From contig NZ_CACZTX010000006.1 of assembly GCF_902784195.1 (NCBI RefSeq), positions 62,001 to 126,000 of the forward strand: 64,000 nt of DNA. The letters are read 5' to 3'. The stretch comes from an uncultured Methanobrevibacter sp. (GTDB lineage Archaea; Methanobacteriota; Methanobacteria; Methanobacteriales; Methanobacteriaceae). Below, in pieces: positions 820 through 10,790 of the stretch (its first letter is position 1; each line of letters begins with the position of its first letter). The notes below the pieces were generated by a model. The model saw only the letters and a program-made list of their open reading frames with translations. It did not search any database and had not been told where the DNA came from. The translations under genes and the position numbers were made by a program.

Positions 820-1755
820 ATGCCAAGCAGTGAAAATCAAAATCAGGAAGATGTATTCACAGATGATAAGAACAACATTAAGCCTGAGATTGGAATTGAA
901 ATAGATGGAATATCATTTAATTACAAATTCTTTGAAACCCTGGAATCATTATCAAAAACATATTCCCAAAGAAAAACCGCAAAGGAATTGAAAGTGTCTC
1001 ACTCTGTGCTTAACAGAAGAATCAAAAATGCTGAGGACAAACTTGGCGAGAAATTGGTCATTACAGTAGGTTCCGGTTCTGAATTAAGCGAAAGGGGATA
1101 TGAACTCCTGGACATTTACTACAAATACAAAAATCGATTGGAGGATAGAAAAGAGATCATAATCGCCGGAGGACACATCATTACAGGCCTGCTTCAGGCA
1201 ATAAGTTATGACTTGCCATTCAATACATTGATTTACAGCAGTGATGACGAAAGCGCATATGAGCTTGCAAAACAGGATTTGGTTGACATTTTAGCATTGG
1301 ACGACCCATTACTTGCTTTTGAAAATGACTTGAACTTTACAGCTATTGCATATGACCATCTAGTGTTAATCTCTCCAAATCATGGAAAGACAATTGAAAA
1401 GATAGAAGATTTGGAAGGATTGAAATTCATTGGAGTCAAAGGAAGTGCTCAAAGGTTGGCATGGAGCACATTAAGACAGGAAAACATTAATTTTACAATA
1501 GATAGAGAAGTGAAATCACAATTTGATGCATTTAAGATTGTTAAAAACTCTGACGAATACTATACTTTCTTAAACGCAAGCTATTTCAATGGAAATGAAA
1601 TCCTAAAAAATGAAACCCGCCACGTAATAAGTTTGGTTCAAATCAATGATACAAAAGATGACATTTATAATTTAATTGAATATTTACTTTTTGATGGGCA
1701 AATAAAAATAGGGGAACAAGGATTTATACCAATGAAACCTTGGAAAACTAGGTAA
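820..1755 (+). CDS. LysR-like transcriptional regulator with periplasmic-binding-type effector domain
   Basis: This 311-residue protein has a winged HTH at about residues 37-82 (KTAKELKVSHSVLNRRI is the recognition region). It is followed by a LysR/ModE-like substrate-binding region, seen in the ALDDPLLAF and GVKGSAQRLAW stretches. Methanogens carry several such HTH plus type-2 binding-domain regulators, whose ligands (molybdate, tungstate or other small molecules) cannot be told from sequence alone. The start is supported by GAGGGAG seven bases before the ATG. An acidic N-terminal tail of about 30 residues precedes the HTH. It is divergent from hxlB and convergent with thiC. The target genes are unknown. 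Confidence 0.7.
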   Translation: MPSSENQNQEDVFTDDKNNIKPEIGIEIDGISFNYKFFETLESLSKTYSQRKTAKELKVSHSVLNRRIKNAEDKLGEKLVITVGSGSELSERGYELLDIYYKYKNRLEDRKEIIIAGGHIITGLLQAISYDLPFNTLIYSSDDESAYELAKQDLVDILALDDPLLAFENDLNFTAIAYDHLVLISPNHGKTIEKIEDLEGLKFIGVKGSAQRLAWSTLRQENINFTIDREVKSQFDAFKIVKNSDEYYTFLNASYFNGNEILKNETRHVISLVQINDTKDDIYNLIEYLLFDGQIKIGEQGFIPMKPWKTR

Positions 1756-4622: not shown

Positions 4623-5308
4623 ATAAATACAACCCTTTCACTCTTGTTTTTAACTGTTTAAACCGTTTTAACTGTTAATAAAAAAATCACTGATAAAGAT
4701 AAGAAAACTCCCCTCAATGACTTTTTTTAGATAAAATAAGATTAAATATGATTATTTTTAAAAAAATAATGCCAATTATCATCTTATTAATGAATTAAAT
4801 AATATTTGCTGATTTAAATTTAGAAAAAATTCAATCAAAAAATATTATTGAATTGAAAAATTTTTTTCTAAAATTAGTACAATATTATTTTAGACTTCCC
4901 AATATTTAATGATTTTTATTAACATATGTTATGTGCTAATTTTCAATAAAATCGAAACAAAAAAATCATCAAGAATCAAGTAATAAATACTTTATTTTTA
5001 TAATAATTTTAACTTGCGATAGCATTTGAAAACTAATATTTTAAAATTAAAAATTTTTACAATAAATGAATCAGAACAATCGATTAAAAAGCATTTTTAT
5101 TATTAAAAAAAATTTATTAATTAAAAATTACCATATACTAATATACAGATAACATTTAATTAAATTTATAAAAAATTTAATTTTTAGATAAAAATCAATT
5201 TAGCTGTTTAAAAAATCAATGGTTAAGTTGAGAAGTAAACAAATTATGAAAAATAATTGATTTTCTGATATCCTATGATTAGAATATTGGATAGTTGATA
5301 AGAGGACG
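4623..5308. other. Long AT-rich intergenic region
   Basis: About 690 bp between the divergent kinase and coiled-coil genes. It is strongly A+T-rich with stops in all frames, and I see no RNA gene, clear repeat or ORF. It must contain the two divergent promoters. Confidence 0.5.
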
Positions 5309-6133
5309 GTGGTTTTTATTTCCGAAGAAGAAATTGAAACTTTAAAAGAGAAATTAGCTAAAAAAGATGAGAAACTTAAAAATCAGGCAAGTGAATTGAA
5401 TCATTTAACCAATGAAGTAATTCCTGATTTGAAAAAGGAGAACAAAGAATTAAAAGCACTTAAAATTGAACTTACTGATGCATTGGAAACAAGCACAAAG
5501 AAATATTTTGATCAGCTTGAAATCAATGCAGACTTAAGTGAAAGCGTTGCAAAAAAAGGTGCTGGTCTTCAATTAGCTAAAGTCAGATTGGATGAGATTG
5601 AGAAACTTGTTGTCGAACTTGAAGAAAAGGCTAATGAAAAAGAGGTAGAAATTGCATCTGAAGAAGGATTAAGCGAAGATGAAAAATCAATTATTGATGA
5701 GCTTAACAAGGAAATCAAGGAATTGAACAAGGAATTGGATGCAAAAGACAGAGTCATTGACAACAAGGAAAAGGAAATCAAAAGAAAGCAAAATCAATTG
5801 AAAGATAAAAACGCTGAAATTGATGACTTGAAAGAAAATCTAATTCCAAAACTCAAGGCGGAATCCGCTGAACTTAATGCTAAAATCAAATCCAATCAAG
5901 CAGAGTATGAAGCAGAAAAAGCAGGAGTTGGAGGAAGAATCGCCAAATTAGAAGCGGAAATTAAAGACCTAAATGAAAAATTAGACAATAAGCAGAGAGA
6001 TTACAATAAGTTAAGCACTGCATTGAATGCAAAAGACAAAACAATTAACTCTCTTAAAAACAAAAACAATCAATTATCTGAACAGCTTAAAGAAGATAGC
6101 AAAGGATTCTTTAGCAAAATCCGAGGCAGATAA
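5309..6133 (+). CDS. Coiled-coil protein of unknown function
   Basis: This 274-residue protein is almost entirely heptad-rich, charged helix. Runs of Glu/Lys with Leu or Ile at a/d positions extend from about residue 6 to 262, with short breaks near 80 and 190-205. It ends in a basic, Phe-containing tail (KGFFSKIRGR) that could dock on a membrane or partner. There is no signal peptide, membrane segment or ATPase motif, so it is not an SMC protein. The GTG start has GAGGA only a few bases upstream; no in-frame ATG is available. It stands alone, downstream of a 690-bp gap. A scaffold or cytoskeletal role is possible but unsupported. Confidence 0.65.
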   Translation: MVFISEEEIETLKEKLAKKDEKLKNQASELNHLTNEVIPDLKKENKELKALKIELTDALETSTKKYFDQLEINADLSESVAKKGAGLQLAKVRLDEIEKLVVELEEKANEKEVEIASEEGLSEDEKSIIDELNKEIKELNKELDAKDRVIDNKEKEIKRKQNQLKDKNAEIDDLKENLIPKLKAESAELNAKIKSNQAEYEAEKAGVGGRIAKLEAEIKDLNEKLDNKQRDYNKLSTALNAKDKTINSLKNKNNQLSEQLKEDSKGFFSKIRGR

Positions 6134-6395
6134 TTGTATTTCGATTAATTAATTTTTATTAATTAATCACTTTCTCTTTTTTTACAAATTTACACACAAT
6201 GCTATTTTTAGAATAATTATTTTTTCTAAACATTCTATTTTTAATAATAAAGTTTTAATATTATCGAACAAATAATTGTAGGATTATTTTAAAAATAATG
6301 GAAAGATGAGGTATAAAAATTTACAAAAATAGAAAATAGATAATAAAAAATAAGAAAAATAGTTGAAAGTGACTTACTCACAACCATTAATAAAA
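6134..6395. other. AT-rich intergenic region between convergent genes
   Basis: About 260 bp of A+T-rich sequence between the coiled-coil gene and the lysS terminator. It begins with a hairpin-like AATTAATTTTTATTAATT run (about 6144-6165) that could terminate the coiled-coil gene. Nothing else was recognised. Confidence 0.4.
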
Positions 6396-8553: not shown

Positions 8554-10790
8554 TTATTGTTCGAATCTACGTCTGTCGATTAATTCTTGACGTTTACCTG
8601 CGTTCCAACCACCGTTTGCAGATTTAGCGTGACCTACTTGTTGTACGTAACCAGTAATTCTGTCATACCATTCTACATCAGCAGTTTCACCACAGGAAGG
8701 ACATTTGTTGCTTAATCCTTTCATTAAGGTCTTACAGTGTAAACAGAAACTGAATGCTGAACTGTAAGCCCAGAAACCAATGTCAGATTTTCTTGCAATC
8801 TTATTGGTTAAGCTCATTAATGCATCAGGATCAGAGTATGATTCACCCATGAATGCATGGAAGATGTGTCCACCAGGAGTTAAGCTGTGGTATTTGCCTT
8901 CGATTTTGACTTTGTCTGCAAAGGAAATGTCACTGTTTACAGGTACATGTGAGGAGTTAGTGTAGTAGTTAGCTCCATTGTCACCTTGTAAGATTGCTTT
9001 ATCTCCGAATTGCTCTTTATCTAAGGTTGCAAATCTGTATGCAGTGGATTCTGCAGGAGTTTGCAATACAGACCATCTGAGTCCAGTTTCTTCTTGTAAG
9101 GATTTTGCTCTTGCATTGATGTATTCTAAACATTTGATACCGAATTTGTTTGCATCAGGGTTTTCGATACCTTCACCGAATAATGCAAGCAACATTTCAT
9201 TAAGACCACAGAAACCAAAGGACAAGGTAGCGTTTTGGATTCTGTAATAGGTTTCACCATCAACTTTTTGATCTAAGAATGGTAAGATATCAAAGTTGTT
9301 TAAACAGTTAAGACCTTGGTTTCTTCTAATCATTAAGGTTTCAACAGCTAAATCCATGTAGTTGTCTAAGTATTCGAATACATCGTTTTCATCTCTGGAT
9401 TGGTATCCGATTCTTGGTAAGTTCAATGTTACGTAAGCTAAGTTACCGGTTCTTAAACAGTCTTGTTCCCAGTCACCGGTCCAGGTGTCTTGGAGACAGG
9501 TTCTGCAACCCATATAGTTAGCCATTTGACCTCTGTATTTAGGTAACATGTTTACAAAGTAGGATGAACCGTATTTTGCAGAAAGTTCATGAACTAAACG
9601 TAAATCATCATCATAGTCACCTTTTAAGGTCTCTTCACGTAAAGTGTAAATCTGGTTTCATCCTCAAAGTCAGCGTAAGTTCCTACAACTTGTCCTTTTG
9701 GACCGTATGCAGTTACATCCTGCAAGAATTTTGGAACTCCAAATTCTAATTGCATGCTTGTAAATGGAACTTGGGAACCTCTTGCTGCATAAGCCATGTT
9801 CAAGTTGTATACTAACATTTGAATGGATTGTTTTACTTCATCATAGCTTCTGCCTGTTGCAAATGGTGCAACAAATACGTTCCAGAGGGACATAGCTTGT
9901 CCACCAGACATGTTTTGCTGTGCTGCTAACATGATTTCACCAGTGTGGTTCATCAATGTTTCCATATGGGAAGGAGGTGCAGCAACTGAAGTGTGATCTC
10001 CAGTACCGTCAACTTTAAGACCATGTTTAATGAATGCTCTTATATCATGTTGGAGACAGTTCAATGGTCTTCCAGCAAAGAATTCCAAGTCGTGAATGTG
10101 AATGTCACCAGACATGTGTGCATCTGCTAAGTGAGCTGGTAACATGTGTAAGAGTGCATATTGTTTTAATGCTTCATCAGCAACATACTTGTGAATGGAT
10201 TCAGGGTTATGCATCATGTTTGCATTGTCTCTTGAACCGTTTTCAATTAAGGAAGTGATGTTGTAAACAGGAATACCTAAACGAGTGTATCTGCTTCTTA
10301 AATCTTCTAATCCATATTCTACAAGTTTTGTGTTTACGATTTCCCTAATCATTGGAGCGGTAAGGTATTCGACATTGAGTTTTTTGAGTTCTTTCCAAAC
10401 TTCAGTAGCAATTTCAAAAGCGGTTTCTTGGGAAGCGCCGGTTTCTTCAACTAAGGTACTTGCAATTTTTGCCATGTCGAATGGTTCAATTTTATCTCTT
10501 GAAGAACGTACTTTTAAAGTAGTTTTTGCTAAGTATTTGTTAGCTGATTCAGAATCTACTTCTTCTAAGCATTCGTAAACAATCTTTTTGATCTCTTTAG
10601 TGCTGATTCCATCGTATAGGTTTTCAACAACAGTTGAAACAATTCTTTCAGATTCAAAGTATGGAGCATCTACCATCACTAAAGACTTTAACAATTTCTC
10701 ATAACTGAAAGCTTCACAAACACCGTTGTTTTTCTTAACGGTGATTTTAGCTCTTCTAATATCGTTTTCTACATTATCGACTTTTTCCAC
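8554..10790 (-). pseudogene. nrdD: Anaerobic ribonucleoside-triphosphate reductase, disrupted by frameshift
   Basis: Class III reductase that makes deoxynucleotides using a glycyl radical. The first frame (10790-9624, 388 residues) holds the N-terminal ATP-cone (about residues 12-100) and the start of the barrel. It runs out of frame near 9640-9655. Reading resumes in the -1 frame (LREETLKGDY, then YMGCRTCLQD) to 8554. The C-terminal part has a zinc ribbon (CLHCK, CPSCG) and the glycyl-radical region ANGGWNAGKRQEL. Joined, the product would be about 743 residues, and I judge that 20-30 residues are missing at the junction. The GTG start follows AAGGTG. No nrdG activase is adjacent. It may be a true mutation, a sequencing error or recoding. 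Confidence 0.8.

Follow-up and report, generated by a model that had tools for sequence, protein, structure and literature searches.

A 76-bp gap in the class III ribonucleotide reductase gene of a Methanobrevibacter draft genome is very probably an assembly error

The gene nrdD, encoding the class III ribonucleotide reductase (RNR), is located on the minus strand from 10790 to 8554 of the window, by which the whole analysed 64-kb stretch of DNA is meant. In the assembly it is broken into two frames, with a shift of the reading frame and a missing block. This break is confirmed. We regard it as very probable that the underlying 76-bp gap is an error of the draft assembly rather than a sign of pseudogenisation, recoding or a split enzyme. 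Here, we infer that the draft joined two sequence ends which are not contiguous in the real genome, with loss of the stretch between them. In the living organism, nrdD would most likely be a normal continuous gene of 770 codons as in the relatives, and its product would be activated by an intact NrdG.

As assembled, the N-terminal open reading frame (ORF) ends with the residues ..DETRFTLYVKRP, followed by the stop codon TAA, and the NrdD family sequence resumes in a second frame as IYTLREETLKGDYDDDLRLVHEL.., running down to the end of the gene (Table 1). Both frames overlap by about 34 nt. This is in line with the first-pass annotation, which had read from the letters that the N-terminal frame ends and that the family sequence continues in another frame. 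The N-terminal ATP-cone was found by a profile search (PF03477, residues 93-168, two stretches), and the CxxC pairs as well as the RITGY stretch are present in the C-terminal part, which comprises 367 residues and corresponds to residues 404-770 of the relatives G009 and G016 with 99.7% identity. These features are shared with class III RNRs of the NrdD type (TIGR02487/PF13597), but neither half represents a full NrdD. The N-terminal ORF covers positions 1-179 of the 562 positions of the PF13597 profile and the ORF starting at 9549 covers positions 256-562, both above the cut-off. Searched genome-wide, the profile gives two matches (1-179 and 205-562), which lie in two frames, whereas an intact relative is matched over 1-562 of 562 in one frame. 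A similar picture is given by the NCBIfam NrdD model with its cut-off of 326.35 bits, which is barely reached by the C-terminal half (327.4 bits) and missed by the N-terminal half (157.7 bits), while the intact relative scores 560.2 bits. A scan for promoters and terminators added nothing to this picture.

Table 1. Coordinates of the two nrdD parts, the deletion junction and further lesions in the same assembly. Gene names were taken from NCBIfam, except for fprA, which is the name we presume for the flavoprotein gene.
Feature	Position	Strand	Locus	Description
nrdD N-terminal part	window 9624..10790	(-)		GTG start; 388 aa; ATP-cone domains and first ~190 NRDD-domain residues; TAA 9626-9624 past the frame break
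nrdD C-terminal part	window 8554..9657	(-)		read in the other frame, which is open from TGA 9660-9658; ATG 9549 as first standard start codon
Deletion junction in nrdD	window 9651..9652	(-)	L001	76 bp (25 codons + 1) of the relatives absent; 1-base microhomology (A), position ambiguous by one base
ileS	C6:~186805		L136	53 bp absent out of frame; relatives intact
fprA-like flavodiiron gene	C6:177932			59 bp absent out of frame
asd (aspartate-semialdehyde dehydrogenase)	C9:~89254 (second contig)		L197	56 bp absent out of frame vs G011, one reference
ksgA	C6:144732			in-frame loss of 66 bp after GPGIGT, within GPGIGT..EQDE, vs G011 only
pus10	C6:141493			in-frame loss of 111 bp vs G011 only

The size of the gap was determined by searching the window DNA against 40 relatives. 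Nearly every match from the same genus or family was divided into two parts at about query base 1140. In all 20 Methanobacteriaceae loci with cleanly abutting alignment pieces, 76 additional bases are present (17 loci with a gap of 75 and a query overlap of one base, three with a gap of 73 and an overlap of three bases). The missing stretch codes for a conserved block of 25 codons after the DETR stretch, ..MIQRAFTEILLEGDSEGKPHLFPNT(I). Since 76 bp correspond to 25 codons plus one base, the frame is shifted and runs into the stop codon TAA. The first-pass annotation had expected a block at this position and proposed a short deletion whose length is no multiple of three; the alignment with relatives bears out both and puts a number on the missing residues. 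On the protein level, 105 of 109 nrdD loci, some of which represent the same genome in two collections, are continuous in one frame across the block; the remaining four are the window itself, L083 with a 44-bp deletion of its own, and L088 and L093, where the contig ends. The block DETRMIQRAFTEILLEGDSEGKPHLFPNTIYTLR, absent in the window, is present in these 105 loci or at least recognisable there.

Over the 770 amino acids of NrdD, the nearest relatives G009, G015 and G016 share 99-100% identity with one another. Lack of the 76 bp and the shifted frame are confined to the assembly of the window. Among the 20 abutting loci, this shift is private to the window genome. Furthermore, the codon changes unique to the window branch (compared with G015, G009, G016 and G018) are all synonymous, with four synonymous and no nonsynonymous changes before the break and one and none after it. 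Hence, nrdD shows no sign of relaxed selection, although a total of five changes is small. In the literature on the M. olleyae genome, RNR frameshifts, anaerobic RNRs of methanogens and assembly errors, no published report of this lesion was found.

Programmed -1 (or +2) frameshifting, which would fuse the two frames into a shortened NrdD, could be suspected from the overlap of the frames and from both halves appearing conserved. However, a slippery heptamer of the type X XXY YYZ is absent from all frames of the 40-nt stretch, so that the earlier statement that no canonical heptamer is visible holds for every frame of the overlap. The shift is not conserved either, as all 20 relatives carry the additional 76 bp, and the product would still lack the 25 residues conserved in 105 of 109 loci. 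Since these residues are missing from the assembled DNA, neither frameshifting nor a restart of translation could restore the block, and such a recoding event appears exceedingly improbable. Equally hard to credit is a split enzyme, in which two separate polypeptides would form one active NrdD. Here, two long ORFs are indeed present and each exceeds the PF13597 cut-off, but the earliest ATG, GTG or TTG of the second frame is the ATG at 9549, 75 nt beyond the stop of the first frame, leaving no usable restart near the break. Inspection by eye revealed no GGAGG-like site in the 25 nt upstream of this ATG. In addition, about 60 conserved residues would be part of neither chain, and among the relatives examined no such split occurs except through a different lesion of their own.

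Whether the organism could live without NrdD depends on the rest of its genome (G000; 2,046,587 bases in 18 contigs, 99.77% complete). NrdD is encoded once, as PF13597 detects solely the two halves of the window gene. No protein of the genome matches PF02867, the large subunit of class I and II RNRs, although this family was found in 11 of 14 control genomes; a second RNR, which the first-pass annotation had considered as making the loss tolerable, was therefore rejected. Likewise, deoxynucleoside kinases of the dNK family, the one family of salvage enzymes searched, gave no match (matches in 7 of 14 control genomes), and salvage through dNK was discarded for this reason. A relocation of the missing block within the genome was dismissed as well, since a search with a degenerate pattern of 38 nt, allowing 3 mismatches, was negative. 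The radical-SAM activase NrdG, on the other hand, is encoded at C8:874-1428 within an open frame of 240 aa and scores 174.7 bits against a cut-off of 131.15.

Loss of RNR is lethal unless deoxynucleosides are obtained by other means. With one NrdD, no PF02867 protein, no dNK and no second copy of the block, a strain devoid of NrdD is expected to be inviable without deoxynucleosides. If the 76 bp had truly been lost, very recently, in all or part of the culture that was sequenced, the only RNR would be inactivated, and the cells would have to live on salvaged deoxynucleosides or represent a minority or mixed type. The junction, base-exact and without N, would fit to such an event, and an engineered E. 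coli line is reported to tolerate the loss of RNR when deoxyribonucleosides are supplied (PMC10121223). Nevertheless, we consider a real deletion unlikely, because the sole RNR of the genome is affected, no dNK match is present, and the similar lesions in ileS, asd, the fprA-like gene and ksgA would be left unexplained.

A scan for broken genes with 413 reference ORFs at >=75% identity took in the whole of the window's contig C6 (173,225 bases covered) and most of C9 (78,372 bases covered). Four genes are split between frames, with losses of 76 nt in nrdD, 59 nt in the fprA-like gene, 53 nt in ileS and 56 nt in asd. Frame slips of 1-2 nt are absent among the covered bases of both contigs; all four breaks imply deletions of 53-76 nt. 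This count is a lower bound, since the sequence scanned, C6 plus 240 kb of C9, makes up roughly one quarter of the assembly, the portion covered by reference ORFs is smaller still, and tblastn scans miss lesions close to gene ends.

The most informative case is ileS. An identical loss of 53 bases was obtained against G016, G009 and G011, the three relatives compared on DNA level. Of 18 relatives within the genus, 14 show a match over the full span, all of them longer than the query; for the remaining four, the match is incomplete or lacking. The four remaining IleRS matches in the genome show 23-33% identity; we take them to be ValRS and LeuRS, as expected of class I synthetases, which leaves ileS as the sole copy. 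Isoleucyl-tRNA synthetase is indispensable to any living cell. Therefore, no viable organism could carry this lesion in its only gene for the enzyme. For the fprA-like gene, whose best NCBIfam match is flavorubredoxin-like and below the cut-off, the two-piece pattern is seen in 16 of 18 relatives, and exactly 59 bp are missing against both relatives measured. Since a second copy with 65% identity is present at C7:53807, this lesion taken alone proves nothing.

Taken together, lesions of the same kind are present in several indispensable genes while the relatives are intact, namely in ileS, asd, the fprA-like gene, ksgA, pus10 and nrdD. Since this occurs within one assembly, it decides for an artefact rather than a real lesion. 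The break in nrdD matches that of ileS in size class, lies on the same contig and is likewise best read as a faulty join. An artefact is also supported by the lack of decay on the window branch together with the lack of a replacement enzyme. The first-pass annotation had treated the break as genuine damage to an essential gene, a view not sustained by these results; it had itself named an assembly error as the finding that would speak against it, and the indirect evidence, i.e., the deletions in ileS and other core genes and an nrdD without relaxed selection, points there. One could also assume that all lesions are real and stem from a burst of end-joining-like deletions of 50-110 bp in the lineage, which hit the only RNR as well as the only isoleucyl-tRNA synthetase. 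This would demand a mixed population, or deoxynucleoside uptake combined with complementation of the lost products by other means, and we judge it highly improbable.

Several observations have to be counted against an assembly error. The junctions are base-exact and the contig contains no N, as a real deletion would give. Within the window, the comparison showed no broken gene besides nrdD: of 59 reference ORFs at >=60% identity, 57 are intact, and the remaining pair are the nrdD genes of two relatives. Only one lesion was found in the 78 kb covered of C9, and for asd, ksgA and pus10 the comparison comprised a single relative each. A deletion mediated by repeats or a collapse of repeats was rejected as the cause, because the microhomology at the three measured junctions amounts to 0-5 bases (one base in nrdD, 4-5 in ileS and none in the fprA-like gene). 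Gene-fragmenting errors in draft assemblies have been reported (PMC12007338, PMC5771137), and there, likewise, genes are broken in the assembly at several places per genome and intact in relatives. In contrast to the frameshifts from long-read errors and the misassembly of repeats dealt with in those reports, the losses found here comprise 53-111 bp at non-repeated junctions.

Biologically, the break in nrdD is probably of no consequence. It serves as a warning, since a completeness rating of 99.77% hides several holes of 50-110 bp in core genes. It would be wrong to claim gene loss, pseudogenes or essentiality from this genome, for instance that RNR, IleRS, Asd or KsgA had been lost.

The assembly error is also supported by public rumen metagenome-assembled genomes, in which lesions of the same class occur in nrdD. 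Deletions of their own are found in L083 (44 and 54 bp, positions 4990-6260), L041 (74 bp, ~6116) and L085 (99 bp, 5767); in L085, stretches of N occur as well, and a gene next to nrdD has lost 63 bp. In the coordinates of the relatives, the 44-bp deletion of L083 (1132-1175) overlaps with that of the window (1140-1215), and L041 and L083 overlap near 2116-2204. A deletion hot spot was given little weight, as a rough estimate for five deletions in a 2.3-kb gene yields ~0.6 overlapping pairs by chance. Among the other genomes, G148 and G152 (few contigs, 89-91% complete) show no NrdD match at all, which could be due to incompleteness. Besides the main nrdD, divergent NrdD-like matches with 31-44% identity are present in G124, G125, G126 and G127 of genus g3 as well as in G066, G070 and G072 of g5.
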